IMG/VR virus record: IMGVR_UViG_3300014720_003322
Span: 1 to 23,007 of that record
Length of the DNA stretch: 23,007 bases
Source of the DNA: a virus
Direction: 5' to 3' (one strand)
Notes under the pieces: model-generated
Seen by the model: the letters and a program-made list of their open reading frames with translations, nothing else
The model's database searches: none
What the model was told of the DNA's origin: nothing
Program-made: the position numbers and the translations under genes
Shown here: positions 1,276 to 19,541 of the stretch, in pieces
Layout: the number at the start of each line of letters is the position of its first letter
How positions within the stretch are numbered: the first letter of the stretch is position 1

Positions 1276-1276
1276 G

Positions 1277-2694: not shown

Positions 2695-2704
2695 GTGTCT
2701 TCCT

Positions 2705-4281: not shown

Positions 4282-5492
4282 TCAGGATGGCCATAGATGT
4301 ATTCATACACATGAGGGAAAATAACCCGGCTGTCTTTGGCGCGCTGCTGGTCCAACTGCCGCAAGCGATTCACAGTATGCTCTAAACCAGACCATCGAGG
4401 ATGGAGGGCTGGCAACGGATCTGTCAATGCGTCAAGATAGTTATCTACTCCTCGTATCTGATATGAGCTACGAGCCAGTCTATCTCGTGCTTGATCTTTC
4501 CATTCAAAAGGCATGCGTTGGATGGCAAAAGGTTGGCTGCTTTCGCGATTGTTGTACATGTTGATGTTGATATCGCTGGGTTTTTCTACCACATCTAGTG
4601 CCAACAGATAGTCCACATAGTCCCATAAGGTCATGTGATTGATGTTCATGGCCACCAGATTAAAAGTGATCTGATGTCCTTGATCTCTCAAGGCTGCGAT
4701 ACGTTGGATGTTATGCGTGAAGGTCAACCAATTGCCGGGCCAGCGCACATATTCAAACACATCGCCCATGGTCTCGCCGCTGACCATCCAGCGCACGTTA
4801 GAAAACTTGGTAAGCCGGTCAAACATGGGGTTGTTGTCCAGCATGCTGAGATTGGTGTTGATCTGCAGGGTACATGAGGGATTGACTGCATACAGGTGAT
4901 CTAATATGCTGATATTTTCCTTGATGGCCAAGGGTTCTCCGCCTGCGAAATATATCCAGTCGATATCGGCAAACGAATCAGTAAGATCTTCTCGCATGCT
5001 CTGTTTGTCTTCGCGTGTGGTTTTGACAGTGATAGGTATTAGACCTTGCTGTCGATGATTCTCTTCCGACCATAAGGAACTGTATTGTTCACCGCAATAG
5101 ATACAGGCAAAATTGCAGGTATTGTTCCATCTAAGATCAAGATATTTGAGTTTGGTGTTATCGGGTGATTGATAAAAATCACTGGTAAGATCGGGATCTG
5201 GACTGCGCGCACCACCGATGGGTTGTTGTTCAATGTACTTGTTGTTAAAAAAAGTTTGCATGCGATGCTGCGGATCTTGCCGCCAGCAGGCCACACACCC
5301 CTCTACTCTTTGATTGTCGATCATGCGGGTGCGTATTTCTCGCGCTCGTGGTCCGTCCAGGATCTCTTGTATGGATTGCTCTTTGATGTTGCCCAGGTTG
5401 TTATGGGCTGTACAACAAAAATCTACCGTGCCATCGGTGTGAAGATAGAGAGCGGTCCAGGCAGCTGCGCAGAAATATTCTCGATCAATCAA
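4278..5492 (-). CDS. radical SAM protein with N-terminal cysteine cluster (copy 1)
   Basis: The 404-residue protein is a paralogue of the next gene. N-terminal cysteines C8, C26, C27, C66 and C69 (FCAAAW, FCC, CVAC) form a probable auxiliary iron-sulfur site; the core motif CNFACIYC gives C126, C130 and C133 after KYLDLRWNNT; GGEP is at 184-187; VRWMVSGE follows in the barrel. The start must be TTG at 5490-5492: an in-frame TGA directly precedes it and the next methionine comes after the essential cysteines. GGAG lies nine bases upstream. It overlaps the 170-residue gene by eight bases and the second copy by four. A role in modifying a nucleobase, sugar or peptide is possible; nothing in the sequence selects among these. 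Confidence 0.85.
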   Translation of the reverse strand: MIDREYFCAAAWTALYLHTDGTVDFCCTAHNNLGNIKEQSIQEILDGPRAREIRTRMIDNQRVEGCVACWRQDPQHRMQTFFNNKYIEQQPIGGARSPDPDLTSDFYQSPDNTKLKYLDLRWNNTCNFACIYCGEQYSSLWSEENHRQQGLIPITVKTTREDKQSMREDLTDSFADIDWIYFAGGEPLAIKENISILDHLYAVNPSCTLQINTNLSMLDNNPMFDRLTKFSNVRWMVSGETMGDVFEYVRWPGNWLTFTHNIQRIAALRDQGHQITFNLVAMNINHMTLWDYVDYLLALDVVEKPSDININMYNNRESSQPFAIQRMPFEWKDQARDRLARSSYQIRGVDNYLDALTDPLPALHPRWSGLEHTVNRLRQLDQQRAKDSRVIFPHVYEYIYGHPE

Positions 5493-5997
5493 TCACATGG
5501 TCTCCGTCGTATTTACACCAATCTGTAAACTGGCGCCTGTCCATCAGGTCATGCAAGCGGTGCACCCAGACTCCGGGATTGCTATCAGCGAAATCTCTGT
5601 CATCGATCTTTAGGCAGGTATTGTAGTTCCAGAGTCGGATGTAAGGGACAGGCACCTTGATGATGGGTATGAACCTGTCATTCTCGCACAAGCTGCCTTC
5701 GTGGAACTGTTCCACGTATTCAAACGGTATGTCCAGGCTGCACCAGAGGCCCCGCATGAGGAATGTGGAGATCACGTTCTCCCAGGCCGTATGTTCGTCT
5801 GGAGTACGAGGATGATAGCTGTCGTTGGCGCCAAAGAATATGTGCCGGGTCTCGTAGGTGGACCGAGCCAGCGCGGCCTCTATGGCCTCCTGCTGATGAT
5901 AGCCCACCACGAACAAGGTGGGCCAACCATGCGCTGGCGTGTGTTCTACTTCTCGACCGTAGAAAAAGTCTGCAGATTCGTGTCCGGGCCTATCCAT
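5485..5997 (-). CDS. conserved phage protein, unknown function (170 aa)
   Basis: The 170-residue protein starts MDRPGHESADFFYGREVEHT and contains LFVVGYHQ (28-35), HIFFGANDSYHP, a WCSLDIPFEYVE block, and FIPIIKVPVPYIRLWNYNT followed by LKIDDRDF and SNPGVWVHRLHDLMDR. I recall close homologues with this block order (G-E-T/LFVVG, FGAN, LKIDD.DF, NPGVW.H) in T4-like cyanophages and related marine phages, always uncharacterised. It sits between the DUF465-like gene and the radical SAM pair, overlapping both, so it may belong to the modification pathway. It is soluble, with no signal peptide. Several acidic and histidine residues could bind metal, but I cannot assign a catalytic site. Confidence 0.8.
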   Translation of the reverse strand: MDRPGHESADFFYGREVEHTPAHGWPTLFVVGYHQQEAIEAALARSTYETRHIFFGANDSYHPRTPDEHTAWENVISTFLMRGLWCSLDIPFEYVEQFHEGSLCENDRFIPIIKVPVPYIRLWNYNTCLKIDDRDFADSNPGVWVHRLHDLMDRRQFTDWCKYDGDHVID

Positions 5998-6190
5998 TGT
6001 GCTGTGTGCCTTTGTCGTGTGCCTGTTGCCGGGTTTTTAGTTCGGCCAGCTGATCCCGGATCTGCAGGCGCTGTTTTTTCAAATCGTGAAGATGCGTGTC
6101 GTCAAACACGCCGGTTTTTTCCATGCCGTCGATCTGCTTGTCTAACACAGCATGCATCTGTTCGAGATGCCGTATCCTACCTTCATACAT
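5990..6190 (-). CDS. DUF465 (YdcH-like) small coiled-coil protein
   Basis: The 66-residue protein MYEGRIRHLEQMHAVLDKQI... has the DUF465 pattern: H-L-E...H..LD..I...E, a short FDD linker, then a second helix HDLKKQRLQIRDQLAELK. It should form a helical hairpin. I chose the ATG at 6188-6190 because GGAG lies seven bases before it; a GTG two codons upstream (6196) is less well placed. It overlaps the end of dpdA by eight bases and the 170-residue gene by eight. Family members are common in proteobacteria and phages without known function. Because it is co-translated with DpdA it might be a partner, but that is inference from order only. Confidence 0.8.
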   Translation of the reverse strand: MYEGRIRHLEQMHAVLDKQIDGMEKTGVFDDTHLHDLKKQRLQIRDQLAELKTRQQAHDKGTQHNG

Positions 6191-7709
6191 CAACACTCTC
6201 CTCTAGTGCTTCAAGTTTAGTGGGGTCCAGATCAAGATCTTCTTCCTGGGGTTCGTCGAAATCAAACAGGCTGGTGAACATGGGTCGCGCAGTCCATACC
6301 CGTTTGCCCGTGAAGCCGCGCGTGCCGATGATCCGCTCCCATATCTTGCTGTGCTCATCGATGATGGCCAATGATCGAGAACGATCACGCGCGGCAAACA
6401 CCCGCTCGATCACGCGCCGGGCATCATACACAGGATCATGCGGGTGCACCATCATGTCAGGACAAGTGCCCGAATCATACAGGCGATTGGCCCGTTGCAC
6501 AGCCTCGATGTGCGTCCACACGTTGTGGCCCATGAGCAGGGCATAGCTAAAACTATCCCACGATGTGCGTCCTTCTTTGCCGATCTTGTTGAGATCGCCG
6601 GGCCGGTAGTGACAGATGTCGGATATCTTGAGCCGGGCCGAAATCGGGCTGTCTTCAAACTGTGGGTGGATTCCGTCTTGCATGACAGCGTCTCGGAAGG
6701 ATCGGCTATCAGTGGCATACTTCTTGTCGTCGGCAGTGGGGCTCATGCTGTAGCTCCATTTCTGCCGATTTTCGCAGGCGATAGAGTGGTACAGCTGACC
6801 ATTGGCAGTGGCCAGGAACGGACTTGCGCAGTCAAACGAGATAGTGAAAGCAGGATTGGCATGCTGTCGCACCGCCCTTTGGATATCGGTTAGTAGCACA
6901 GCCCATTCCAGTTTGGATGTGCCTAGGAAGTGCATCCAGTCGTGCGCACCTTCTTGCAAGAGCCCGTCATGTATGAGATGCGTCAGGCGTTTCAATACCA
7001 GATGCACGTCGCACATGTTCTGCCCGCCCATGGCCCAGCCGTTGAAATGATTCTTGTACCGGTGCGGATCGCAGTAGTGTTTCATGAGATCATACCAGTG
7101 ATCGGCCTCGGCATGGTTGGATCCCTGCAACACATTAAGGATCCGGGTCGATCCATATCTATTGGCTATCCAATATTCGTTGTTGTATCGCGTGGCATTG
7201 ACCGCATCATCGTAGCTGTGGATGCCACATAGTTCGCTGGCCTCTCGATCCAAGTAGGTCCAGGTAGGTATGTCCATGGTCATGCCATAGGCCGCGATGC
7301 CCATCTGCCACTCCAGGACCTGGCGGCGCTTTTTCTCTGCTGCCTTATCTTGGGTATCAGCCCACTGTCCAGGCCACACGCCTTTGGCGATCTGGAAACC
7401 ACCGGAGTCGGCCAGCATCACAGTGTTGGCATCGCGATTGCGGACCATGTCCTCTTTTGGGTCTGCTTTCTTGAGATCAAGATTGGCGTGTCCCGCACTG
7501 TACAGGCTCCAGCGATAAGGGAACAGGCCCCGCTGCGGATTCAGCCAGTTCAACTGCTCCATGTCGGGTATGAGGGCAGGCATGCGGCTCTGCTCCACAT
7601 ACACTCCAGACCTCTGCCGACCTACATAGGCGGCATAAAAGCTAGAGATGGCCGGCAGGAAAATGGCATAATCGCCCTGCGCGGCTGTGAGGTCGTGCTG
7701 CTGGATCAC
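6183..7709 (-). CDS. dpdA: DpdA-type 7-deazaguanine DNA transglycosylase
   Basis: The 508-residue protein belongs to the tRNA-guanine transglycosylase (TGT) superfamily in its phage DpdA branch, which swaps guanine in DNA for a 7-deazaguanine such as preQ0. Visible TGT features are LADSGGFQIAKG (99-110) with D101 as the base-binding/acid-base aspartate, MDIPTW (145-150), LNVLQG (191-196), GWAMGGQ (224-230), which corresponds to the GG(L/A)xxGE substrate loop, and ISFDCASPF (290-298), where D293 fits the nucleophile. It starts at GTG (7707-7709), whose TG is shared with the clamp TGA stop. The C-terminal 30 residues are acidic and hold MFTSLFDFDEP (about 477-487), like the clamp-binding tail of T4-family polymerases. 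It sits between clamp and DUF465 genes in one overlapping operon. Confidence 0.85.
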   Translation of the reverse strand: MIQQHDLTAAQGDYAIFLPAISSFYAAYVGRQRSGVYVEQSRMPALIPDMEQLNWLNPQRGLFPYRWSLYSAGHANLDLKKADPKEDMVRNRDANTVMLADSGGFQIAKGVWPGQWADTQDKAAEKKRRQVLEWQMGIAAYGMTMDIPTWTYLDREASELCGIHSYDDAVNATRYNNEYWIANRYGSTRILNVLQGSNHAEADHWYDLMKHYCDPHRYKNHFNGWAMGGQNMCDVHLVLKRLTHLIHDGLLQEGAHDWMHFLGTSKLEWAVLLTDIQRAVRQHANPAFTISFDCASPFLATANGQLYHSIACENRQKWSYSMSPTADDKKYATDSRSFRDAVMQDGIHPQFEDSPISARLKISDICHYRPGDLNKIGKEGRTSWDSFSYALLMGHNVWTHIEAVQRANRLYDSGTCPDMMVHPHDPVYDARRVIERVFAARDRSRSLAIIDEHSKIWERIIGTRGFTGKRVWTARPMFTSLFDFDEPQEEDLDLDPTKLEALEESVDV

Positions 7710-8437
7710 TTGCTCTGTGCTGGTAAGATGTAGTTGTATTCCGCGATGCCCGAGTTCACAGTGATCTGCGCAGCACCGTCATCCGAGATGCGCATGACCT
7801 TGTCGCCTGTGAGATCCATGATCGAGATCACCTGTTTCACTGGCCAAGCCCATGCCCGTTTGAGCGCGCCTGTGCAGCCCGCATGGAAAACGAACTCGCC
7901 TGCGTGTGTAGAGTGATCACCAAAGAAAAACTTGAGGGTATCTTTTTCTGTCCGGGCCTGGAAGGTGTTTTCTTCCGCGTTGGCCTGGGCCTGCATCTTC
8001 AGCCGCTGGATGCCAGCTATCGTGGGTTCGAACTCCACGTGCCAGTTGGCACCACGGAACTTGGCCGTTTTCAGTTTCTCTGCCACGATCTCGCTTGTCA
8101 TGAATCGATAGTCGTTCTCGAAGTCGTGCGTGGCGTTTTCGAAGTGCAGGCCCACTGGGGTGGGCGAGCCGTTGCGTTCTTGTCGCGTGACCGTGATCTC
8201 GGCATTCTCTCGATATTCTTGCAGGTTCAAGAGGATCTTGAGTTTGGCCAGATTGGGCATGCCAAAAGTGCCCATGAACTCGGGCACGGGCTTGAGGAAT
8301 CGTCCCTGCACCACTACCGATTTGTCTTCGGCCAGGCCGTCGATCTGTGTTTCCTTATCACTGCCAGTGATCTTGACGAGATCGATACAGCCAAGGTCAA
8401 AAGTATGTTCTACTAGATCTAAAAGATAGTCTCTCAT
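7706..8437 (-). CDS. 45: DNA polymerase sliding clamp (T4 gp45-like)
   Basis: The 243-residue protein matches T4-like clamps in length and pattern: an N-terminal DLVEHTFDLGCIDLVKI strand-turn-strand block, VVQGRFLKPVPEFMGTFGMPNLAKLKILL (a region characteristic of phage clamps), and C-terminal KQVISIMDLTGDKVMRISDDGAAQITVNSGIAEYNYILPA. It forms a trimeric ring that tethers polymerase and late-transcription factors. The ATG at 8435-8437 is chosen because GGAG lies seven bases upstream; an in-frame TTG four codons earlier lacks support. A TCTAAATA box lies about 34 bases upstream. The stop overlaps the dpdA GTG, linking its expression to DNA modification. Confidence 0.88.
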   Translation of the reverse strand: MRDYLLDLVEHTFDLGCIDLVKITGSDKETQIDGLAEDKSVVVQGRFLKPVPEFMGTFGMPNLAKLKILLNLQEYRENAEITVTRQERNGSPTPVGLHFENATHDFENDYRFMTSEIVAEKLKTAKFRGANWHVEFEPTIAGIQRLKMQAQANAEENTFQARTEKDTLKFFFGDHSTHAGEFVFHAGCTGALKRAWAWPVKQVISIMDLTGDKVMRISDDGAAQITVNSGIAEYNYILPAQSK

Positions 8438-8469
8438 ATGGGTCTCCAATCAGTATAAGTGTACGAGGT

Positions 8470-9414
8470 TTATTTAGATTTTGCTACGATTTTGGCCAAA
8501 GTTTGTCCTCCCCGCAGGCTGACGAGTTGGCCGGGGCGACGCAGTTCTACCCAGTTGGCAGCTGCATCAAGACGATAGTCCTGCTCGATAACGAAGCCAA
8601 TGGATTCACATATGGCCAGGACCAAGCGGCCGGGAGTGTAGCAGGTGAACGAGCGTTCGGCCAGTTCAACAGCACCCTTACGGTCGCAATCGTTATAGGT
8701 CATGGCCAGCACACCCCCGGGACGCAATCGGTCAAAGATTTCTCGGAGGTATGCGCGCATGATCTCAAATGGTTTGTATTGGAAAAAATTGTAGGCCAGG
8801 CAGAATCCAAACTGTCCTGCTGGCATGTGCTGCATCATGGGCTCGCTATCACTCTCTCGGATGGCATAGTATCTCAAACGGCTTTGATACATATCATTGA
8901 ACTTTTCTTTTGCAGGTTCGAACATGTCATGATTGGTATCTACCACGTAGAGCGGGTCGCACGCTACCATGTGTTCAATCCAATTTTCCAAACCCGGTCG
9001 GATGATCATTCCAGCATAATGATAGTCACAGTGGGCCATCACGCGACTTTTGATGTATTCTCGGCGCTCGTCGGAGATTGGAAATCGTCTTTGCATCACG
9101 TACTCTACCGTATCGCGCTCCATGGCACGCTCGTACCATTGATAACTCTGTGCTAGATACTGTGGCTCCAGAGCCTTTATCTGTTCCAACAGATCGGCTA
9201 GCATGTGATCAAGACCGAGATCAAAATCCTTTGTGGCCATGAGTGCGCGATCCCTGGCATTTTGCAAATCACTTAGATGGTCGGGCAGTTGGCTGGGATT
9301 ACGACCAACAGTCTCTAACATGTCGTCCATCTCTGTATGGATGGCACGTTCAACTGCTGTGGGTCGGAGACTCTCCAGCAGTTCTCGATAGTGGGCCAGT
9401 TCGCTGATCTTCAT
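8470..9414 (-). CDS. SAM-dependent methyltransferase-like protein
   Basis: The 314-residue protein has an N-terminal helical region (about 1-110) and a C-terminal class I methyltransferase-like region. Visible parts are HYAGMIIRPGLENWIEHM followed by CDPLYVVDTNHDMFE (152-166; a Rossmann strand ending in acidic residues that could bind SAM ribose), FGFCLAYNFFQY (203-213), and FDRLRPGGVLAMTYNDCD (227-244; the usual post-motif III LxPGG turn). The start overlaps the polymerase stop (ATGA), so it is translated with it. It could methylate DNA or act on the 7-deazaguanine product. No N6-adenine (DPPY) or cytosine (PC) motif is visible. The C-terminal 20 residues are basic. Confidence 0.7.
   Translation of the reverse strand: MKISELAHYRELLESLRPTAVERAIHTEMDDMLETVGRNPSQLPDHLSDLQNARDRALMATKDFDLGLDHMLADLLEQIKALEPQYLAQSYQWYERAMERDTVEYVMQRRFPISDERREYIKSRVMAHCDYHYAGMIIRPGLENWIEHMVACDPLYVVDTNHDMFEPAKEKFNDMYQSRLRYYAIRESDSEPMMQHMPAGQFGFCLAYNFFQYKPFEIMRAYLREIFDRLRPGGVLAMTYNDCDRKGAVELAERSFTCYTPGRLVLAICESIGFVIEQDYRLDAAANWVELRRPGQLVSLRGGQTLAKIVAKSK
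8471..8478 (-). promoter_or_regulatory. late-type promoter box TCTAAATA for clamp-dpdA
   Basis: On the minus strand the bases read TCTAAATA, seven of eight matches to the T4 late consensus TATAAATA. It overlaps the end of the methyltransferase gene and lies about 34 bases before the clamp start. A transcript starting about six bases downstream of the box would include the GGAG before the clamp ATG. Confidence 0.45.
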
Positions 9415-12071
9415 TGGAAATCAAATAGTGTCTGGAACGTGTTGTTGGTACTGGTGCTTGATGCCAGATCCCAGTCCAGCACACCCAAGAGATTCTCTAT
9501 CTTCTGATCTACCACAGTGGCTTCCATTTCAGCATCATCAAAGGGCAGGTCCCGGAACCACTGGGGCAGGTGCAGTTCGTCCGTAGGATAGGCGATTGAA
9601 GTCCAACCTAAAGCATTGGACTTGAGCTTGCACACGATAGCCTTCATACCGTCCACGATCTGCATGGAATAGTTGTCCGAGTTCATGCGGCGCATGGTGT
9701 TCCAGTTCATGCCAGCTCGCACATGGCCAGGCATGTTAGCGCGACCTTCACGCTCTTCGCGCTTGGCATATTGCGTGAGGTTGTTAATCCTCTTGGGAGA
9801 GCCTTTCTCCCAGCCCGGACGATCAGCGAAAGCGTACTTGAAATCTTTGATCTTCTGCACGATCTCTTCGCGCTCGCTGCCTGTGAGCACATTGTCCAGT
9901 ATCTCGCTCAAGAAGTCCTGGATGATCTTGGGTGTGTCAGACCTCTTGAGATCCAAACCCATGGCCTTGACTTTACCAGGCCGACCATTGATATCCGTGC
10001 GCTTGTTTTCTTTGTCGTAGTAGAGCACAGCATAGCGTTTTTTGGTGATAAACAGACCGCGCGTGGCCACCAGTTCACGGCCACCGCGTATGACCGAGCC
10101 CATTTCCCGGGGACAGTGGAAGGCCTGCTCCATGAATCCAGGAAAGCTCTGGTTGACTTGATCTGCGATCGAATCATACAAGGCCACGCAGGTCTCTTTG
10201 GACCAATCCATCCTGCCGGCCGCTACTTCATCTCGGACGGCCGGCCAAGCAGTGAAATAGCAGCTGTCTGTGTCACCATAGATGATGGCATCGCCCACGT
10301 GATCGTATCGTCCGGTCACACACTCGTTCACATAGGCATCCATGTGCCGGGCGATCGATCGACCGGTTAGCGTGGTCGACTGACCAATGCGCTTGTCAAA
10401 GAATCTGCAACCGGGATTGAGGATGGCACCATAGAGACTGTTCAAGTTGATCTTCTTGACCAATTGCCGCTTGTCCCAATACTCTTCATCCTCTTTGCTG
10501 TCGGCGGCCTTGAGCTTGGCCTGCATGTCTTTGCGTTCGGCATACCAGCGTTTGAGCAGACCTGGGATCACGGCTTCTGTTTCATAGGTGAAGATGGTGC
10601 CGTTGGCCGACAGGATCCAGGGCTGATTGCTATCAAACACCATGCGCCACACTTCTGCGGCTGAATGTACCGACTCATCGCCATCTTGCCAGTCTATGGT
10701 GATCTCTGTGCCACGCTGCTGATCCATCACAGCGGTATATTCCAAGGTGCCGAACAGGCCCTCCCAAGCCGCTGCGAAGCTGGCACCGCCCTGCTGTTTC
10801 TCCCGGATGTAGTGGTCGGTCATGATGGGCCGCAGCTGGCCCACGATAGTCTCGGGTCCCATGTTGAGCGCACGGATAGCCGATGGATAAAGACTGTTGA
10901 TGTCGATAGATCCCACCCAGTCGTGCATGCCTTTCTTGGGATAGGCCACGTAGGCACCTGCGGCCTGCGTTTCCTCATCTGTCAGGCGCTCTCGCCTGAC
11001 AGGCACCACCATGCCGCGCTCGTGAGCTTCGTTGATGATGGCCTGTTCTGTGACCGCCACCGCACCCATGGTCGTAGGTAGGAGCACGGTGTTTTCATGT
11101 GCCAGGGTGTTGGCTAGATCTAGGAAGCGCAGTTTCTTGTCGATAGCTGCCAAGAGTTGCACGTCCTGGCGGTTGTATTCTATAAAGGTCTTCCAGTTCT
11201 GATTGTACAACTGATCCAGCGTGCCTTCGAAAGCGGTCTTTGATCCCAGGTCTTCATACTCGCCGATGGCGTCCAGGCTGTAGCTGTGCCGCTCTTCATA
11301 GGTGTATTTCCTGTAGAGCTGCATGTAGTCTAGATGCACCCGGCCTATGAGGTCAAACGTGATGTTCTCGGCACCGAAGCGTTCAAACGTGCGCTGTTTG
11401 GGCAGCTGGTCCCAGAGACAGAAACGCCGTGTGTCATCTTTTGACAGCACGCGGGTGGTCCTCATGACGGTGTAGGGTATGTCATAGCCCTCGGAGTTCC
11501 AGCCACTCAGCACATCCGCATCCTGTATGAGGTTGAGGAAGGTGTCTAGCAGTTCCGACTCTTCCCACATGACAAAGGTGTTGGAGAACTCGCCTGCGAT
11601 CTCCTGGGCAGTTTCTTTGGACATGTGCCGGGGTGGTCTGACTAGCGTGACCAACTGATCCAACCAGTCCATGTAGACTGATATGGCGGTGATGGCGTTG
11701 AACGGGTCTTCGGGTCGGCTGAAGCCGCGCTCGGGGTCGAAGTCCACTTCGATGTCAAAGAACGCTGTGTTCAGCCGGGGAGCATCCACTCCCTTGTAGT
11801 TTTCCTCCAAGCAGCGGAAGATGGGATTGATGTCAGCCTCGTAGAGATTCTTGCCACGGTTGATGGCCATCTCCTTGCGGAACTCTTTGTTGCTGCGTGT
11901 GCTGAAGCGGGCGACCGGCGTGTTGTAGATCGAGCGGAACTTGCCCCGGGGGTCATCATAGTAGAAAACGAAATTGGCTGCGTGCTCTTCGTAGTAGCGC
12001 TCGCCGTCGCGGCGACCCACGATGTGGATGCGATCGTGATCACGATCAAACAGTGCGTCAATGTAACTCAT
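9411..12071 (-). CDS. 43: family B DNA polymerase (T4 gp43-like)
   Basis: The 886 residues match T4 gp43 in size (898). Exonuclease motifs are FFDIEVD (104-110; D106, E108), GWNSEGYDIPY (190-200; D197) and EYNRQDVQLL (298-307; D303). Polymerase motifs are A, DINSLYPSAIR (390-400; D390); B, KKINLNSLYGAI (539-550); and C, YGDTDSCY (598-605; D600, D602). All catalytic carboxylates are present, so proofreading and synthesis should be active. The protein ends QTLFDFQ, the expected clamp-binding tail. GGGAG lies four bases before the ATG. The leader of about 80 bases after the DsbA-like gene contains a late-type box. The gene is followed with ATGA overlap by the methyltransferase gene. Confidence 0.97.
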   Translation of the reverse strand: MSYIDALFDRDHDRIHIVGRRDGERYYEEHAANFVFYYDDPRGKFRSIYNTPVARFSTRSNKEFRKEMAINRGKNLYEADINPIFRCLEENYKGVDAPRLNTAFFDIEVDFDPERGFSRPEDPFNAITAISVYMDWLDQLVTLVRPPRHMSKETAQEIAGEFSNTFVMWEESELLDTFLNLIQDADVLSGWNSEGYDIPYTVMRTTRVLSKDDTRRFCLWDQLPKQRTFERFGAENITFDLIGRVHLDYMQLYRKYTYEERHSYSLDAIGEYEDLGSKTAFEGTLDQLYNQNWKTFIEYNRQDVQLLAAIDKKLRFLDLANTLAHENTVLLPTTMGAVAVTEQAIINEAHERGMVVPVRRERLTDEETQAAGAYVAYPKKGMHDWVGSIDINSLYPSAIRALNMGPETIVGQLRPIMTDHYIREKQQGGASFAAAWEGLFGTLEYTAVMDQQRGTEITIDWQDGDESVHSAAEVWRMVFDSNQPWILSANGTIFTYETEAVIPGLLKRWYAERKDMQAKLKAADSKEDEEYWDKRQLVKKINLNSLYGAILNPGCRFFDKRIGQSTTLTGRSIARHMDAYVNECVTGRYDHVGDAIIYGDTDSCYFTAWPAVRDEVAAGRMDWSKETCVALYDSIADQVNQSFPGFMEQAFHCPREMGSVIRGGRELVATRGLFITKKRYAVLYYDKENKRTDINGRPGKVKAMGLDLKRSDTPKIIQDFLSEILDNVLTGSEREEIVQKIKDFKYAFADRPGWEKGSPKRINNLTQYAKREEREGRANMPGHVRAGMNWNTMRRMNSDNYSMQIVDGMKAIVCKLKSNALGWTSIAYPTDELHLPQWFRDLPFDDAEMEATVVDQKIENLLGVLDWDLASSTSTNNTFQTLFDFQ

Positions 12072-13423: not shown

Positions 13424-13882
13424 CTACTGGCCCGCTGCGGCTATGGCCGCGCCGTTGTTAAAACTCTGGCTCCAGGAATTGGGAGTGCGACCTCGGCGTT
13501 TGTACCATTCATAGCCGGCGCGATGCCCAGAACAGTCCTTGGTGCACTGCGAACCTTTAAAGGTCAGTTCCGCTAGTTGCTCTTCATCGGTCTTGACATT
13601 GACAGGTTTCCTACCACCACCGCCAACATCGCGTCCGGGTTTACCGGCCTTTGATTGTGCTGCACGCTTGCGGCGCACTGCGCTTGATTTTTCTTTATCG
13701 GTCATGGCAGCGGCCTTGGCAGCGGGCACGCATTTGGCGTAGCCTTTTTTCTTGCCAGACGAGCCGCATTCAGGATGGCCGCCACCTGGAAGGGTCTTAC
13801 CAATATTTTTCCATTTTTGACGGAACCACTTGCGCAAGCCGCCTTGGTAGGCACCTTCGGTAATGAATTCGCTTGCACGCAT
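13424..13882 (-). CDS. basic protein with capsid-targeting-like N-terminus (152 aa)
   Basis: The product begins MRASEFITEG, closely resembling the T4 internal protein leader MKTYQEFIAE, which is cut after the last Glu by the head protease gp21. After this the protein is strongly basic. It has CGSSGKKKGYAKCVPAAKAAAMTDKEKSSAVRRKRAA (about 39-75), a block recurrent in marine phage proteins, a GKPGRDVGGGGRKP linker, and GSQCTKDCSGHRAGYEW (109-125) with cysteines and a histidine. It may be an internal head protein bound to DNA, or a virion protein processed by the prohead protease. The start overlaps the stop of the upstream 134-residue gene (TGATG). Confidence 0.7.
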   Translation of the reverse strand: MRASEFITEGAYQGGLRKWFRQKWKNIGKTLPGGGHPECGSSGKKKGYAKCVPAAKAAAMTDKEKSSAVRRKRAAQSKAGKPGRDVGGGGRKPVNVKTDEEQLAELTFKGSQCTKDCSGHRAGYEWYKRRGRTPNSWSQSFNNGAAIAAAGQ

Positions 13883-14286
13883 CAGGTGATGGGTCCACCT
13901 TCCACCCAGGCATCACAGGTACGCTTGGCAGCGCACTTAAACTTGAGAAACTTGCAATAGCCGAGATCGCCGGCATCGATGGTGTCATGCGGGTCGGACC
14001 CGGCTTCACTGCCGATACCTTTTGCTATGCAATCTTGCATGTCATCCGAGATATCAAAGGCCGCGCAGTTGCCGCAACGGGCTGACTTGGCCTCTTCGGG
14101 ATCCTCCATGTTCCATTCTGCGGCCTTGGCCTGCCAGAATTCCTCATTGGGCTCGTTGGGATCCAAGGGCCCATAGCCATACTCATCTATGGCCTTCTGG
14201 CGATTTTTAAGATTGAGATCGATCGATTGGGTGGCAGGAGGACAACCCCGCTCGATGGCCTCCATCCGGTCGATCAAGTGCCTCAT
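13882..14286 (-). CDS. cysteine-rich, probably metal-binding phage protein (134 aa)
   Basis: The 134-residue protein is acidic in its first half (YGPLDPNEPNEEFWQAKAAEW) and carries six cysteines in its second: CGNCAAFD (76-83), a cysteine in MQDCIAKGI, then GYCKFLKFKCAAKRTCDAW (108-126). The spacing CxxC...C...C...C...C suggests zinc or iron-sulfur binding. I recall the 'RCGNCAAFD...GYC...CAA.RTC..W' block from several marine phage proteins without known role. The ATG overlaps the TGA of the 43-residue gene upstream. One additional cysteine (C15) lies near the N-terminus. Confidence 0.75.
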   Translation of the reverse strand: MRHLIDRMEAIERGCPPATQSIDLNLKNRQKAIDEYGYGPLDPNEPNEEFWQAKAAEWNMEDPEEAKSARCGNCAAFDISDDMQDCIAKGIGSEAGSDPHDTIDAGDLGYCKFLKFKCAAKRTCDAWVEGGPIT

Positions 14287-14414
14287 GCCGCGGCTTTCAT
14301 GGCCGCGCTCATCATCTTGCGAGCGGCCGTCCAGTTGGGGGCAGTGAACGTGAATTCTTTGTAGATGCGACTGCCGTTTTCAACCACCCAGCGATGGAAT
14401 GTGAAAGTTTTCAT
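14283..14414 (-). CDS. small protein (43 aa)
   Basis: The 43-codon ORF reads MKTFTFHRWVVENGSRIYKE, then a basic C-terminus (NWTAARKMMSAAMKAAA). AGGAG lies six bases before the ATG, in the 12-base gap after the 37-residue gene, and the TGA overlaps the ATG of the cysteine-rich gene. A strong ribosome binding site and tight packing support a real gene. It has one predicted beta-hairpin and one helix and no recognised domain. Confidence 0.7.
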   Translation of the reverse strand: MKTFTFHRWVVENGSRIYKEFTFTAPNWTAARKMMSAAMKAAA

Positions 14415-14426
14415 CGTCGACTCCTG

Positions 14427-14540
14427 TTATCGTTTGATCATGGTCGTGATCTTGGTCTGGATGATTTTAGCCCAGAACGGTTGGGGAAAGTTCCAACCCA
14501 CGAATGCTCCTACTGCGATCCAGAATAGTGTGTCTAGCAT
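14427..14540 (-). CDS. small single-pass membrane protein (37 aa)
   Basis: MLDTLFWIAVGAFVGWNFPQ opens a 37-residue protein with one hydrophobic segment (residues 3-16) and a basic tail (KIIQTKITTMIKR), so the C-terminus is probably cytoplasmic. AAGGAG lies six bases before this ATG, whereas longer in-frame starts upstream overlap the previous gene and lack a site. The last codons and the next gene's ribosome binding site are adjacent. Function is unknown; a small inner-membrane protein of the late region is the most that can be said. Confidence 0.7.
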   Translation of the reverse strand: MLDTLFWIAVGAFVGWNFPQPFWAKIIQTKITTMIKR

Positions 14541-14553
14541 TTGATTCTCCTTG

Positions 14554-15006
14554 TTATTTTTTCTTGGGTTTGCCCATGCGCCAGCCACCGCCTTTTGACT
14601 TGTACCATTTGGAGGCCCAGGCGTTGGCATAGGCCGAAGGATACACATCAAACTTGGCACGCGCGGCCGACTTGGCCCGGCCCCAGAGGTCGGGGTTGGT
14701 TGGTTGCGGGCGCTTTTTTTCTAGCTGCAGGCTGGGGCCTGTGCCAGATTCTTTTTTTGGGTTTTGTTCGCGGATGGCATCCACCCGGCCGCCGGTGGCC
14801 TGGGCATGGGCCTCGGCACCGGGCTGATCCAGGAAATCTCGAGGAGACTCGCCTGCATCCTTGGGCGTGACCCGGAAACGATATGCGCCTTTGGGGCGCT
14901 CGGCCTCGACATCGCGCATGGTCAGGCGACCGCGCATGCCTGGAGGTAGGTCTGATTTCTTGATGTGCGCGGGCAGATCCGCTTCAAATAGGTCGTCCAG
15001 TATCAT
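14554..15006 (-). CDS. basic protein with possible head-protease leader (150 aa)
   Basis: The 150-residue protein begins MILDDLFEADLPAHIKKSDL; L-F-E at residues 6-8 fits the (L/I)-x-E cleavage rule of T4 head protease. The C-terminal domain DLWGRAKSAARAKFDVYPSAYANAW...WYKSKGGGWR (about 107-144) is a short basic module (DUF5872-like, from memory) that recurs in marine phage proteins, often joined to different N-termini. The middle is a low-complexity linker. The start overlaps the stop of the 746-residue gene (ATGA). It is probably DNA- or capsid-associated. Confidence 0.65.
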   Translation of the reverse strand: MILDDLFEADLPAHIKKSDLPPGMRGRLTMRDVEAERPKGAYRFRVTPKDAGESPRDFLDQPGAEAHAQATGGRVDAIREQNPKKESGTGPSLQLEKKRPQPTNPDLWGRAKSAARAKFDVYPSAYANAWASKWYKSKGGGWRMGKPKKK

Positions 15007-17243
15007 GATGGTCGCTGTCCATTCAACATTTTTTGGCGCCGGCGGACATGGTCGATGGCCCAGCGGATGTTTTCATCTACCTTCTTTTTGTTCTTGCGCC
15101 GTGACTCAGCCACTTTGGTCCCACCAGTCGCCATCCACATGCTCTTGATCAGTTGCTTGACTGCTGGCGCTCCGATGGGATTGTCTTGATTGGCCGTGAT
15201 CTTGTCCCAGATGGGTTTGATCTGGCCCACAATATCATCCGCGGTCATCTTGGCAGATTGCGAGTTGCTGCTAACGGTTGATGATGCAGCAGCACCGGCG
15301 CCGCCAGTCGTCTGGGTACCGGTACCAGCTGCAGCAGAGTCCGAATCAACAGGAGGTGCGTAGGGCACGCTACCGGTGGATGTATTGTCTGTGCCCGCGG
15401 CGGCAGCAGGTGGCTGTAATTTAAGATCACCGTAGACCTGTCGGGCCACTGCGTCAGGCACACCTTGCTGGATAAGGAAAGCAAATATCTTGTCGCTGTC
15501 GGTGGGTGAGCCGGCCACTTTCCAGTTGGTGTTGAGTTTTTCTGCCGTGACTTTGGTCGTGAGCTGGCGACCAAATGTCTGGAGGCCCTGTCCTATCCGG
15601 CTCATGAGTCCGGGTTTCTCTGGCTGTTGCACAGGAGCACCGGGCCTGGTAGGACGGAGATATTCGGGAGGTTCTGCGGCGGCCTGGGGTGCTGGTGCTG
15701 ACGGAGCAGCGGCGGCTGGATTGAATGTGGGTTCTACTCGTTGACCGGCCTGCGCGGCCGGAGCAGCCGCAGGTGGCGCTACAGCAGCAGGTTTTGCGAT
15801 GGTCGCGGCCGGACGTTGGCTGGCCTTTCCTCTGCGAGCCATTATGTCTTGGGCGCGGGCGCCTTTTACATCTAGTTCAGTGAGTTCTTGTTCGATCAGG
15901 CGGAACACATGGTTCACTCCGCGGCGATTGAACTGCAGGCCACCGCGCCGGCGATCCAGGCTCTCGTCCAGGCGCCAGTGCCATAGGGTGTGGTCTTTGT
16001 CCACCAGATGGCGCAGAGGCAATGGTCGGATGCGCGTGCGACTTTCTCTCGCGATGATAGTGCCTTCGCGCACCATAGATTGATAGGCTTTTTCGGTAGC
16101 GACAGTTTTGGCGAACTGTATGGCGCTTGCAGAAGGATTGGGGCCAAATCTAGCCAGAGTCTGATCAAATGTCTGTTTGTAAACGGGATTGTTAGCGATC
16201 TGATCAGCCGTCACTCCACTGACCGTGCCGCTTGAGCTGCCAGCGGCGCGTGCGGTCTGTGCCACGGCCTCGGGTGGAGGCGGTGGTGCGGGTGCCGATG
16301 GTGGTTGGATATCTCCTACATTACCACCGCCTGCTCCAGGTGGTGAGTAAGCGCCTGACTTGACCTTGGCCGCGGTATCTGCCGCTGTGCCAACGCCGCC
16401 CTGATACACGCTGCTTCCGGTCTCGGCTGGTATGTTGATATTCTGTCCCGCCCGGATCACGTCGGGGTTGGTGATGTTGGGATTGGCCTGCAGCAGTTCA
16501 TCCACGCTCACATTGTTGGCCTTGGCGATATCGCTCAAGGTATCACCAGCTTTCACGGTGTAATCGGTGCCCGCTTGTCCAGCCTGGCCTGCTGCACCCT
16601 GATAGACTTGATCTGCGTCTGCGCCTGCGCCACCTTGTGGTGCTTGGCTGCTGGCATAGGCCTGGGCCAGTTTGCTCACGCCGTAGGCAGTGGCGCCTGT
16701 GACGAATCCCGACCACAATGCCGAGCTGGCCTTGTTACCCAACAGCATCTTGTCAAAGGCCTTGATTCCACCTAGAAGTGCTGCGCCTCCTAGGCCTGCC
16801 CCACTCAACCCTGTGAGAGCGATCAGACCTGCATAGATCGCGCCCTGCATGACAGGATGTTTCTTGGCGAATTCTCTGTATTTGTAGATGGCATTCATGA
16901 CCGGGCCTGAATCACCTCCGGCCACGGACTTCAGTTTGTCTATGAGCTTGTCAACCTCCACGTCAAATGTGGACACCGGTCCAGATTTTGATATCTTGTC
17001 AGCCACTCCACGATAGGCATTCGCTATAGCTGATCCTACATCCGTGGCCACGTCCTTGCCCTTGCCGATCATGGTGCGGTTCTGTCCGGAATCGCTGTAG
17101 CCTTTTTCCACTGCCTTGAACAGGTCCTGTATTTCTTTGTCCTCCAGCCGGCGCTCGACCAACAGTTGGCCCACGCGATGGAAGTCGCGGTAAATCTTGT
17201 TTTCCAACAAGGGATCTCGGTCAGTTATGGTAGATATCAACAT
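15003..17243 (-). CDS. large LysM-containing membrane/linker protein (746 aa)
   Basis: Domains in order: an N-terminal charged helical region (1-125); a glycine-rich hydrophobic stretch with likely membrane segments around 131-160 and 174-196; a LysM domain DYTVKAGDTLSDIAKANN...GQNINIP (227-272), which binds peptidoglycan or chitin-like glycans; proline/alanine linkers (300-330, 480-550); a basic region (DKDHTLWHWRLDESLDRRRG, 416-435); and KLNTNWKVAGSPTDSDKIFAF...VYGDL (569-606), a block recurrent in marine phage proteins. The last 50 residues are basic. A short VYQGxxG repeat flanks the LysM. The protein may act at the cell wall during entry or be a virion protein. The ATG shares bases with the TAA of the upstream gene (TAATG). 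Confidence 0.75.
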   Translation of the reverse strand: MLISTITDRDPLLENKIYRDFHRVGQLLVERRLEDKEIQDLFKAVEKGYSDSGQNRTMIGKGKDVATDVGSAIANAYRGVADKISKSGPVSTFDVEVDKLIDKLKSVAGGDSGPVMNAIYKYREFAKKHPVMQGAIYAGLIALTGLSGAGLGGAALLGGIKAFDKMLLGNKASSALWSGFVTGATAYGVSKLAQAYASSQAPQGGAGADADQVYQGAAGQAGQAGTDYTVKAGDTLSDIAKANNVSVDELLQANPNITNPDVIRAGQNINIPAETGSSVYQGGVGTAADTAAKVKSGAYSPPGAGGGNVGDIQPPSAPAPPPPPEAVAQTARAAGSSSGTVSGVTADQIANNPVYKQTFDQTLARFGPNPSASAIQFAKTVATEKAYQSMVREGTIIARESRTRIRPLPLRHLVDKDHTLWHWRLDESLDRRRGGLQFNRRGVNHVFRLIEQELTELDVKGARAQDIMARRGKASQRPAATIAKPAAVAPPAAAPAAQAGQRVEPTFNPAAAAPSAPAPQAAAEPPEYLRPTRPGAPVQQPEKPGLMSRIGQGLQTFGRQLTTKVTAEKLNTNWKVAGSPTDSDKIFAFLIQQGVPDAVARQVYGDLKLQPPAAAAGTDNTSTGSVPYAPPVDSDSAAAGTGTQTTGGAGAAASSTVSSNSQSAKMTADDIVGQIKPIWDKITANQDNPIGAPAVKQLIKSMWMATGGTKVAESRRKNKKKVDENIRWAIDHVRRRQKMLNGQRPS

Positions 17244-18088
17244 TATGCTTCATCCAGGTAGTCAGCGTGGGCAGCGGCCTCTCGACGGCGCGCACAGTAC
17301 ATCTCTGCAGCCATCACGGCCTCATCGAGGTTCCGAAATGGTGTCTTGATCTCCCGGTCGCGGATGCTGATGCGGAAACCATCATCATCGTTGCCGGTGA
17401 TCTTGATCTCTTTGCCATCGTCCGTGCGGATGGTCTTCACGGCCTTGATCTGGTCTATGGTCTGGGGTATCCGGTCCTTGAGATCGGGATCGGTCCGGAT
17501 GGCGGTGGCCACGTCTTGGAAATAGTCGCCCAGCTTCTTCTTCATGGAGGATAGGACATCTTCCGTGGTGGCTGCCTCCATGAACGCTAGACGATCAGCC
17601 ATCTCTTCGCGCCCGCCCATGCGATCGGTAAGCGCATCTTTCACATAGTTCACATAGGCCGAGACATCACTAGATCCGATCTCTTCCCAGTCGGTATCGC
17701 CTTCTGTGACGTCCGCGATGGCCTGCAGCACTGCATCTGCGCCATATGTGATGTACAATTCTGGTTGAGTGTTAGAGATCCTGCGTGCCACTGCCTGGGC
17801 CATGGGATTTTGTTCCAGTTGATCGAGTGTGGTTCTCTGTACCAGATCAAAGTTTTGATGGGGTAGTTGTTTTTTCTTGAATTTAGTCAGCAGTTGCTTG
17901 CGTTCATCTCCAGGCATGTCTTCGCCTTCGCCTTCGCCCACTAGATAACCACGTGTGGCATTGGCGCCGGGGTAAGGTCCGCTCAGTTGTGGGCTGGTCT
18001 GTGCTGGTTTGAACAGGGCCGGTAATTGTTTCACTGACCGTTGTGCGGCATCCAGGCTTTCCAGGATCTGGTAGATGTCGTGGCTCAT
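17243..18088 (-). CDS. phage protein of unknown function (281 aa)
   Basis: The 281-residue protein starts MSHDIYQILESLDAAQRSVK with AAGGA upstream, its ATG overlapping the Dps-like stop (ATGA). The centre NPMAQAVARRISNTQPELYITYGADAVLQAIADVTEG followed by DWEEIGSSDVSAYVNYVKDAL (about 91-152) is a helical module I have seen in other marine phage proteins. The C-terminal part (KEIKITGNDDDGFRISIRDREIKTPFRNLDEAVMAAEMY) looks like a small beta domain with a helix. It is acidic overall with no membrane segment. Position between Dps-like and LysM proteins suggests a virion or assembly role. Confidence 0.75.
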   Translation of the reverse strand: MSHDIYQILESLDAAQRSVKQLPALFKPAQTSPQLSGPYPGANATRGYLVGEGEGEDMPGDERKQLLTKFKKKQLPHQNFDLVQRTTLDQLEQNPMAQAVARRISNTQPELYITYGADAVLQAIADVTEGDTDWEEIGSSDVSAYVNYVKDALTDRMGGREEMADRLAFMEAATTEDVLSSMKKKLGDYFQDVATAIRTDPDLKDRIPQTIDQIKAVKTIRTDDGKEIKITGNDDDGFRISIRDREIKTPFRNLDEAVMAAEMYCARRREAAAHADYLDEA

Positions 18089-18525
18089 TCCCGCGCTTCC
18101 TTGAGATAACTCTTCATCTGCCAGGCGTACTTGCCATGGCTTTCCTGCCGCTCGGCGGCGAAGTTAGCTATGTCTTCTCGACCTTCCTGCGTGGCCGCTT
18201 GGAACAGCGCACGTGAAAGGTCGATCATGGTCTGGGTGTCGGCCAGGAGTTCTGCGAGCATGAGACGCGCACGCGGGATCTTGATCTGGCCCGTGATCTG
18301 GCTCAGCTCCTGTAAACGCTCCAGGCTGCCGGGCGCATATTCGTCCGTGGTGCGGATGAACTCCGCCGTCTTGTCTATGCTATCATGGGTGTCGGCATAG
18401 ACAGCGTTGAAAAAGTCATGCAGCTCGCCGAAGTTGGAACCTTCCACGTTCCAGTGGAAACCCCAGGCCTTGGTGAAATAGGCGTAGCTTGTGCCCAAGA
18501 ATGTCTTTAGATCATCTACCAGCAT
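18085..18525 (-). CDS. Dps-like ferritin-fold DNA-protection protein
   Basis: The 146-residue protein matches the Dps family in length and in the inter-subunit ferroxidase site: AWGFHWNVEGSNFGELHDFF gives H24 and H36, and DSIDKTAEFIR gives D51 and E55. Aligned with E. coli Dps (H51, H63, D67, D78, E82), the third ligand D67 is N40 here. Dps forms a 12-mer that stores iron, consumes peroxide and in many species coats DNA. No long basic N-terminal tail is present, so DNA binding would need another surface or partner. GGAAG lies upstream of the ATG, with a GCTAAATA box about 40 bases upstream. It overlaps the 59-residue gene and the 281-residue gene. Confidence 0.88.
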   Translation of the reverse strand: MLVDDLKTFLGTSYAYFTKAWGFHWNVEGSNFGELHDFFNAVYADTHDSIDKTAEFIRTTDEYAPGSLERLQELSQITGQIKIPRARLMLAELLADTQTMIDLSRALFQAATQEGREDIANFAAERQESHGKYAWQMKSYLKEARE

Positions 18526-18691
18526 TTTTCTTCCGTGGTTTGGCCCTAATGGCGCTGTTCATATATTTAGCGGGCCTGCCCAAACCCACGCGCGAGATCA
18601 CAGTGCCCAAGGGCTGGCTGACGGTGGCGATCGAGCCCGATCCAGTGGCGCCCGCAGTGGCGTTTTCAGGCAGGAATTCTCGGGCTCTCAT
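18512..18691 (-). CDS. short basic internal-head-protein candidate (59 aa)
   Basis: The ATG at 18689-18691 is chosen because it gives the leader MRAREFLPEN and has GGAG seven bases upstream; a longer reading adds 16 residues without support. After the predicted cut following E9 the remaining 50 residues (ATAGATGSGSIATVSQPLG... ending AKPRKKNAGR) contain nine Lys/Arg and no Asp/Glu. T4 internal proteins are likewise small, basic and cut after a similar leader. The GATGSGSIATV turn block recurs in marine phage proteins. It overlaps the 103-residue gene by 26 bases and the Dps-like gene by 14. Confidence 0.7.
   Translation of the reverse strand: MRAREFLPENATAGATGSGSIATVSQPLGTVISRVGLGRPAKYMNSAIRAKPRKKNAGR
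18564..18571 (-). promoter_or_regulatory. possible late promoter box GCTAAATA before Dps-like gene
   Basis: GCTAAATA on the minus strand matches six of eight bases of TATAAATA, including the complete TAAATA core, about 39 bases before the Dps-like ATG and inside the 59-residue gene. It has the spacing expected for a normal leader with ribosome binding site. Confidence 0.35.
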
Positions 18692-18977
18692 CCCATATCT
18701 CCAGCACACGGCCTTTCTTGATCCACCGACCGGGTCCAATTTCTACTCTCTGATTGCTCACTGTAAAGGCAGCGAGGGCTGGCCCCACTGGTTCCACGCG
18801 CACTTCGTAGCGCCCGGGTTCGGCTGCGATCTGCAGCATCTCGCTGAGATAGTGTTCGGTCCAGATCCAGGTGCGCTCGGCGAACAATTCGTCATTCACA
18901 TACACACGATAGATGGGAGGAAGCCCCTCCCACTCACAGTCAAGATCGAACCAGGCTTTGACGAATACCGCGCTCAT
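18666..18977 (-). CDS. conserved phage beta-rich protein, unknown function (103 aa)
   Basis: The 103-residue protein MSAVFVKAWFDLDCEWEGLP... contains IYRVYVNDELFAERTWIW, YLSEMLQIAAEPGRYEVRVE and NQRVEIGPG: alternating strands as in a small beta-sandwich, a pattern I recall from T4-like cyanophage proteins of unknown role. A CATAAATA box ends four bases before the ATG and no ribosome binding site is present, so the transcript may start at or next to the AUG. It lies between two genes with capsid-targeting-like leaders. Confidence 0.75.
   Translation of the reverse strand: MSAVFVKAWFDLDCEWEGLPPIYRVYVNDELFAERTWIWTEHYLSEMLQIAAEPGRYEVRVEPVGPALAAFTVSNQRVEIGPGRWIKKGRVLEIWDESPRIPA
18674..18692 (-). 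repeat. 19-base near-identical repeat coding the MRAREF leader (copy 1)
   Basis: Bases 18674-18692 and 19524-19542 differ at one of 19 positions. Both encode the first six residues (MRAREF) of different proteins. This is consistent with transfer or duplication of the leader as a DNA segment, although selection on the peptide could also hold it. Confidence 0.7.
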
Positions 18978-18981
18978 ACGG

Positions 18982-18989
18982 TATTTATG
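18982..18989 (-). promoter_or_regulatory. late promoter box CATAAATA
   Basis: CATAAATA on the minus strand matches TATAAATA at seven of eight bases. Only four bases separate it from the ATG of the 103-residue gene, so transcription from it would give a leaderless or nearly leaderless message. Confidence 0.55.
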
Positions 18990-18992
18990 GGA

Positions 18993-19541
18993 TTATTTTT
19001 TTGAGCGTTTGCGGCCGCTCTTCATGTTGGCACACCAGTGGTACATCCGGCCACGTTCTCCGCCATACTTCTTAGCACGACTACGCAGGTCACTTACTGA
19101 GCCTTTGCAGGATGCACCAGACCGCTTAACGCGTCCGGGGCGGCTTTTGCCTTTTACTTTACCGTCGGCAAAGTTTTCGTCTATCTTTTCCTTGGCGGGA
19201 TCGAGATCCCATGGTCCCCAGTGCCGGGTCTGCACCATGCGTTTCTTGGCTTCGGTGTCATCATACACTGCATACTCACCGGGTTCCGTGGTGACCTGGC
19301 CCAGTTCGTAGTATTGCGGCTTACGCATCACCACCTGGCGACCGTTGCTGTAGTCCAGCACCACATCACCTACTTCGTTCCAGGCATGGCTGAATCTCTT
19401 GCCCGCTATCGGACCTTGCCCTGTGACATAGGCATGCACCAATCGCATTTCAGGAACTTCAGGCGTGATCATGGCACGGCCCGCTACTTTAAAGCAGTCG
19501 CCGCAACCTTTGATCTCGGTGATGAATTCTCGGGCCCTCAT
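18993..19541 (-). CDS. basic two-domain protein with capsid-targeting-like leader (182 aa)
   Basis: The product starts MRAREFITEIKG, predicted to be cut after E9. An N-terminal domain (about 13-115; GCGDCFKVAGRAMI, LVHAYVTGQGPIAGKRFSHAW, VGDVVLDYSNGRQVV, QYYELGQV) looks like a small papain-like or transglutaminase-like fold: C13/C16, a histidine in FSHAW and an aspartate in VVLDYS are spaced like a Cys-His-Asp set. A basic C-terminal domain (KGKSRPGRVKRSGASCKGSV, RSRAKKYGGERGRMYHWC) recurs in other marine phage proteins. The start overlaps the HAD stop (ATGA) with GAGAG upstream. If injected, such a protein could act early in the host; this is inference. Confidence 0.7.
   Translation of the reverse strand: MRAREFITEIKGCGDCFKVAGRAMITPEVPEMRLVHAYVTGQGPIAGKRFSHAWNEVGDVVLDYSNGRQVVMRKPQYYELGQVTTEPGEYAVYDDTEAKKRMVQTRHWGPWDLDPAKEKIDENFADGKVKGKSRPGRVKRSGASCKGSVSDLRSRAKKYGGERGRMYHWCANMKSGRKRSKK

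Follow-up and report, generated by a model that had tools for sequence, protein, structure and literature searches.

A nine-residue leader appears to tag unrelated proteins for the head of giant T4-like aquatic phages

Several proteins encoded by an uncultivated virus begin with nearly the same nine residues, and the question raised by this locus is what such a shared beginning is for. The DNA analysed here, referred to as the window, is the 23,007-nucleotide IMG/VR virus record IMGVR_UViG_3300014720_003322 (positions 1 to 23,007), and the source record comprises only this stretch. Three of its open reading frames (ORFs), all on the minus strand, start with the pattern MRAxEF[IL]xE: MRASEFITE (13856-13882), MRAREFLPE (18665-18691), and MRAREFITE (19515-19541). 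A sequence-only reading of the window had proposed that these starts are capsid-targeting leaders of the T4 kind, and overall it is partly supported. Comparison with related genomes indicates that a group of giant T4-like aquatic phages appears to tag many unrelated proteins with a 9-residue head-targeting leader. Enzymes, small basic domains, and proteins with hidden export signals may in this way enter the head, be cleaved into separate pieces, and reach the host. Two observations go beyond the sequence-only reading: the predicted cut site also separates internal modules, and a tagged protein of 59 residues resembles gp23 at the point where the latter is predicted to be cleaved.

The leader as a predicted cleavage site

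A search of the window with the leader DNA pattern, one mismatch being allowed, gave exactly three matches where 0.01 were expected from dinucleotide shuffles (0 of 100 shuffles reached three), which bears out the three starts as originally read. All lie at or beside the first in-frame Met of open frames; for the 59-residue ORF, the frame also contains a TTG as well as an ATG further upstream. The leaders occupy nine residues at the very N-terminus and end in ITE, LPE, and ITE. In the T4 record, the internal protein IPIII starts MKTYQEFIAE, in agreement with the sequence-only reading; EF[I/L]xE is common to both, with the window leaders one residue shorter. T4 gp23 carries SFLTE/AEIGG (here and below a slash marks the actual or predicted cut), and its mature chain of 456 of 521 residues is consistent with a cut after E65. 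The endings EFITE and EFLPE present the same motif as these IPIII (EFIAE) and gp23 (FLTE) sites. The published consensus for gp21 is L/I-x-E, with cleavage after Glu (PMC9026906), and Glu at P1 is the rule for the prohead proteases of T4, phiKZ, and SPN3US (PMC9026906, PMC10052503). The predicted cut in the window leaders falls after E9.

The pattern extends well beyond the window. It is present at the DNA level in 13 of 28 records, and a reversed-pattern control gave 0 in every record. Conservation operates at the protein level, since every synonymous codon is in use at the conserved positions E5, F6, I7, and E9. The P3 residue of 259 tagged proteins is mostly I (188), followed by V (37) and L (32). 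Otherwise unrelated proteins carry the leader: the 236 tagged proteins that are complete form 46 clusters, of which 37 are singletons. In a set of 83 related loci, Met stands directly before the motif [KRNQ]x(2-4)[ED][FL][ILVMF]xE in 72 cases and no other residue does so in more than 21, although these loci were chosen by similarity to a 182-residue tagged protein of the window and the frequency is no population estimate. MILDDLFE (14983-15006, minus strand), the start of a 150-residue protein, had been counted as a fourth leader; it is present and could represent a second leader class, but it is a weaker case than the MRAxEF[IL]xE starts. The MKISEL and MKISDL starts of two methyltransferase-like ORFs in the window were not counted as leaders.

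The window belongs to a jumbo phage of T4-like type and covers only part of its genome. The named phages nearest to its family B DNA polymerase are Sinorhizobium phage Phosso and Agrobacterium phage Atu_ph07, and the polymerase is 83% and 80% identical to those of two uncultivated records of 345 kb (G027) and 353 kb (G030). Both records encode an S77 (gp21-type) protease and a T4-type gp23, and both keep the block upstream of the polymerase gene, comprising an ORF of 99-103 residues, a small tagged protein, a Dps-like protein, and an ORF of 160-280 residues; in the window and G027 the block also includes a large multi-domain protein. Among the records examined, S77 was found in 11 of 13 leader-bearing ones above 150 kb (G027, G030, and nine others), and the T4-type gp23 comes after the S77 gene in leader-bearing relatives. 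The cut after Glu that had been attributed to a gp21-type protease thus gains support, as relatives encode S77 together with a gp23 bearing a matching site. The real positive controls of the S77 search are Phosso and Atu_ph07, the nominal control genomes never having matched. Leader-bearing records without an S77 match lack a full gp23 as well, a joint absence that is expected for fragments, and the 48 short leader contigs in which S77 was not found are uninformative because all are about 75 kb or less. As a side observation, the gp21 proteins of leader phages (L277-L292) start M..YL[RK]E/[HN]L[ST]F and are possibly self-processing, and in the same set small ORFs beside the portal start M[LIK]L.E[FL] and are possibly core leaders.

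The same site between modules and before export signals

The 59-residue protein (18512..18691, minus strand) consists of a leader, a segment resembling the N-arm of gp23, and a basic tail. After the predicted cut, 50 residues remain with nine Lys/Arg and no Asp/Glu, exactly as first counted. The segment NATAGATGSGSIATVSQPLGTVISRVG (18581..18664, minus strand) resembles the gp23 stretch that follows its predicted cleavage Glu, both by hhalign and by in-register score. The part after E9, NATAGATGSGSIATV..., aligns with the gp23 of relatives from the residue directly after the Glu of KYLKE/NASAGSTSSGNIATL. With the leader removed, profile comparison of this family against gp23 gave E=2.5e-6 (hhalign), and the ungapped in-register score was 54, whereas the second-best position in gp23 reached 25 and other tagged proteins scored 18 plus or minus 5. 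Because the match begins right after the gp23 Glu, the predicted leader cut and the predicted gp23 cut coincide.

Recurring modules each lie directly after [I/L/V/M/F]-x-Glu, whether a leader or hundreds of unrelated residues precede them. In 66 distinct contexts of a module named here after its residues YHWC, Glu is at -1 in 100%, and one of I, L, V, M, or F is at -3 in 92%, compared with 6% at -2 and 18% at -4. For five modules, the site is found in 84 of 91 internal contexts against a per-position background of 1.74% in the same frames. A homology-edge screen made without chosen modules found the motif enriched 2-3 fold at +1 to +5 of the edge, a peak partly due to the same recurring modules. 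The predicted mature ends of 302 tagged proteins yielded 466 distinct non-leader upstream contexts, with Glu at -1 in 281 and the full motif in 239, some of these alignments being low-complexity or off by one or two residues. Individual junctions illustrate the exchange: GKLSVDVPNE is preceded by MRAQEFITE in G030, by MKKQGVAE in G027, and by EQTVTE in L180, and AVEDRTSYQV by MKAREFITE in G030 and by QGVAE in L052. Such junctions indicate that one module can sit behind the leader in one phage and behind an internal site in another, in keeping with the earlier suggestion of recurring modules and a mobile tag. QG[VM]xE is a recurrent inter-module linker, with up to 5 copies per protein (examples lie at L052:15202-17802, L202:10687-13365, and L180:6107-7636), and it possibly serves both for cutting and as a joint for recombination. 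In podoviruses HTVC023P and HTVC203P and in phage DSL-LC04, none of which has an S77 match, the C-half of DUF5872 is a stand-alone gene starting near Met (M-S-LKKWF). Both DUF5872 halves are adjacent genes in DSL-LC04, near cement and adaptor genes; the N-half, the module with DVYPSAYANAW, is a stand-alone gene there.

Two tagged proteins of the window show this arrangement on a small scale. The 182-residue protein (18993..19541, minus strand) comprises the leader, an N-terminal domain of unknown fold, and the YHWC module (NFADGKVKGKSRPG...MYHWCANMKSG; 18996..19175, minus strand), which has 60 residues with 20 Lys/Arg and 3 Asp/Glu. Its [ILVMF]xE sites are ITE9, VPE31, and IDE122, the last (residues 120-122; 19176..19184, minus strand) being a predicted cut site directly before the YHWC module. 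A tblastn search with this protein against annotated phages gave no match at E 0.01. The 152-residue protein (13424..13882, minus strand) has only two such sites, ITE9 at the leader end and LAE105 at a module junction (residues 103-105; 13568..13576, minus strand). Between them lies the DUF5872 C-half module (YQGGLRKWFRQKW..CGSSGKKKGYAKCVP; 13577..13855, minus strand), recognized by PF19197 at E=1.1e-4, below the curated cut-off, and by phrog_23735 at E=6e-15. The LTFKGS module (LTFKGSQCTKDCSGHRAGY; 13427..13567, minus strand) follows, and [LI]xE precedes it in all 4 of its 4 copies. Several modules likewise share a single protein of 552 residues in L312. An AlphaFold2 model of the YHWC module has three helices with a mean predicted local distance difference test (pLDDT) score of 73, and that of DUF5872 is poor (pLDDT 55), so no fold-based function is claimed. 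Pfam and PHROGs searches found no peptidase domain in the tagged proteins of the window.

The cargo behind the leader is diverse. Elsewhere, tagged proteins carry an ADP-ribosyltransferase exoenzyme domain (PF03496, 9.5e-13), a match to ART-PolyVal (4e-6, below cut-off), a GH19 glycosidase domain, two GNAT (acetyltransferase) domains (3e-8) and weaker GNAT matches in G030, and a weak protein-kinase-like match. These domains are akin to T4 Alt and to the domain list of polyvalent proteins (PMC5512222). The expectation of a uniformly DNA-associated cargo does not survive this comparison, as many tagged proteins are enzymes. The related claim that the parts after the cut are basic holds for small modules (the 59-residue protein, YHWC, and the DUF5872 halves) but not for all tagged proteins, the median net charge per residue being +0.016 for the tagged class against -0.005 for other ORFs. 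A general rule of basic cargo was dropped on the same median and on the first domain of the 182-residue protein, which has 15 Lys/Arg and 17 Asp/Glu.

In relatives, the site is also found before signals for twin-arginine translocation (Tat). In one tagged protein (L016), the twin-arginine motif and hydrophobic stretch at residues 9-29, immediately following the leader MRAQELLVE, match PF10518 at 1.1e-6, which is above the cut-off. In the first 2.9 Mb scanned, 7 of 7 Tat-like signals lie just downstream of an [ILVMF]xE site. A scan for RRGFLxGxGA that imposed no Glu gave 65 contexts, and the site is present 1-5 residues upstream of RR in 31 of 41 internal cases, 6 of 6 post-leader cases, and 5 of 18 other N-terminal cases. 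Domains downstream of internal Tat signals include GH19, LysM with SLT, and LysM with a lysozyme-like region; the L319 protein reads MRASEFIAE/DLSRRGFLRGLG, then LysM, then SLT. These arrangements suggest that Tat signals behind the site form a second, hidden address for the periplasm. Tat-like signals inside long phage proteins were seen in L087, L132, L088, L049/L092, L041, L312, and L314, with further contexts in L315-L394; in L318 and L380 the internal Tat motif is of another class, with GGRIGLKDGGGPK before it and no Glu site. A narrow pattern of QGVxE plus RR matched only in G027 and a near-copy. Among the larger records from the Tat scan, G093 has S77, and several shorter ones gave none. 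The window has no such Tat signals. Its 746-residue LysM protein (15003..17243, minus strand) is syntenic with a multi-module protein that bears a Tat signal in a relative, but itself has none; it ends in a further candidate cut site, V-D-E/NIRWAIDHVRRR (also given as V-D-E/NIRWAIDHVRRRQ).

Proposed mechanism and competing explanations

We consider it highly probable that MRAxEF[IVL]xE is a T4-type capsid-targeting propeptide, that S77 cuts after E9 and between domains, and that the pieces are injected with the DNA. This builds on features read directly, namely the presence and position of the leader, its conservation at the protein level, the S77 protease and gp23 of close relatives, the cleavage consensus, modules bounded by sites, and exchange between leader and internal site. 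From them we infer core binding, actual cleavage, packaging, injection, export, and the function of the pieces. The leader would bind the prohead core and so recruit the tagged protein. The phage S77 protease would then remove the leader after E9 and cleave at [I/L/V/M/F]-x-Glu between domains, giving small modules and enzymes inside the head. Propeptides would leave, and the pieces would stay with the DNA and be injected, small ones passing the portal more easily; those with a Tat signal as their new N-terminus might then be exported to the periplasm. Evenly balanced, in our judgement, are the chances of a broader two-stage address system, in which the leader directs polyproteins to the head and every cleavage by the prohead protease uncovers a further address or an active piece. 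Among these addresses would be Tat signals by which injected wall enzymes go back out to the host periplasm. The prohead protease would then be a general processing enzyme of a modular injected arsenal, whose domains are shuffled at cut sites.

Several results weigh against a leader cut by S77. Neither S77 nor gp23 is present in the 23 kb window itself. Two leader-bearing records, G014 (343 kb, 3 leaders; no S77 or gp23) and G010 (167 kb, 2 leaders; no S77 or full gp23), are of uncertain completeness, and the absence may be true. S77 without a strict leader occurs in relatives G003, G009, G011, G023, Phosso, and Atu_ph07, so no one-to-one tracking of leader with S77 is claimed, and leader counts alone were dropped as an indicator of S77. 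The predicted gp23 Glu lies about 10 residues downstream of T4 E65 in alignments, in a different column, and the gp23 site is therefore itself a prediction. Finally, in the window the DVYPSAYANAW module follows LQLE, with Glu at P1 and Q at P3.

It is improbable that the leader is instead an uncleaved docking or translation-initiation element, serving for example tail or baseplate assembly or efficient translation, with a Glu motif that belongs to the modules or to linkers made by recombination and is not a protease site. Leader codon 2 is nearly always AGA or CGA, and the QG[VM]xE linkers recur like recombination joints; yet all synonymous codons are found at E5, F6, I7, and E9, and variable P2 and P4 with hydrophobic P3 and Glu at P1 form the published gp21 signature. 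Nor would such an element account for a junction residue that is identical after the leader and after unrelated internal sequence, for the alignment of the 59-residue protein with gp23 exactly at the predicted cut, or for a podovirus DUF5872 module that begins directly after Met. Cutting by a protease other than S77, or packing in the tail and not the head, seems very improbable. The match of the site to the gp21 consensus and to the Glu rule of prohead proteases argues against it, as does the similar Y-L-x-E close to the N-termini of gp23 and gp21 in the same phages, even though some cargoes have LysM, GH19, and SLT wall domains typical of tails and a ClpP-like ORF lies near the polymerase gene in G027. 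For the Tat signals alone, it is rather unlikely that they are nested genes with internal starts, or signals for exporting endolysins late in infection, and have nothing to do with cleavage in the head. Some contexts read M-[STN]-RRGFL, where an internal ATG is possible, several Tat cargoes are wall hydrolases, and 10 of 41 internal motifs have no site. Most contexts, however, have I-D, V-D, or D-L-S before RR and no Met, and the site precedes RR in the remaining internal and in all post-leader cases.

If the propeptide reading is true, the head cargo of a large uncultivated jumbo phage group becomes readable from leader and cut motif. Probable injected effectors could then be listed together with the mature ends predicted for them, many of these proteins having no known function. 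Short aquatic-phage domains such as DUF5872 and YHWC would gain a common context as cleavable head cargo, and portal passage of small pieces would offer a simple rationale for cutting. The T4 targeting idea, which concerns a few internal proteins, would come to cover modular polyproteins as well. Through hidden Tat signals, a phage would have a new route for placing enzymes in the periplasm from inside.

Known systems and further features of the window

Capsid-targeting leaders and prohead-protease processing are already known in T4, phiKZ, SPN3US, and P1. T4 IPI-III and Alt are closest to the present proteins, with a short leader ending in aromatic-aliphatic-x-Glu on unrelated proteins, an S77 protease and gp23 of T4 type, and an ADP-ribosyltransferase cargo. 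They differ in having a leader of 10 residues and not 9, and the present phages add many more cargo families, cut sites between internal modules, a gp23 N-arm-like cargo, and Tat signals behind the site. The inner-body and ejection proteins of phiKZ and SPN3US share a Glu-specific prohead protease, many packaged proteins, and several cuts in each (PMC5694885, PMC10052503). Their propeptides are mostly longer than 100 residues, with S/A-x-E or A-x-E as the motif (PMC5694885, PMC10052503), whereas here the leader is short and uniform and I/L/V/M/F-x-E lies where domains join. Polyvalent proteins of phages and plasmids are likewise multi-domain, with ART, GNAT, and wall-hydrolase domains, and cutting into functional units has been proposed; it is thought to occur in cis by their own metallopeptidase domain (PMC5512222), whereas cuts in trans by the prohead protease are predicted here. 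In phage P1, which unlike the present phages is not T4-like, an N-terminal sequence of DarB is sufficient for head targeting (PMC9024508). In the literature within reach, which mostly excluded subscription papers, nothing was found that describes cut sites where the domains of modular head proteins meet, an MRAxEF[IL]xE leader in a jumbo phage, or Tat signals that follow a prohead-protease site.

Other features of the window complete the picture. The 150-residue protein that starts MILDDLFE (14554..15006, minus strand) has the DUF5872 N-half at its C end, as the module KKRPQPTNPDLW..DVYPSAYANAW (14557..14718, minus strand); internal copies in relatives have [ILV]xE before the module in 5 of 5 cases. 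Positions 1-12071, inspected by eye, appear to contain two radical-SAM-like ORFs, one sugar epimerase-like ORF, and one glycosyltransferase-like ORF in addition to the family B DNA polymerase, which alone was confirmed by search. The ClpP-like protease ORF of G027 lies directly upstream of its polymerase gene (L312:8661-9254 of the reverse complement) and has no counterpart in the window. A Dps/ferritin-like DNA-binding protein without a leader (18085..18525, minus strand) belongs to the conserved block, and its neighbour in the window, as in G027 and G030, is the small tagged protein that resembles gp23.

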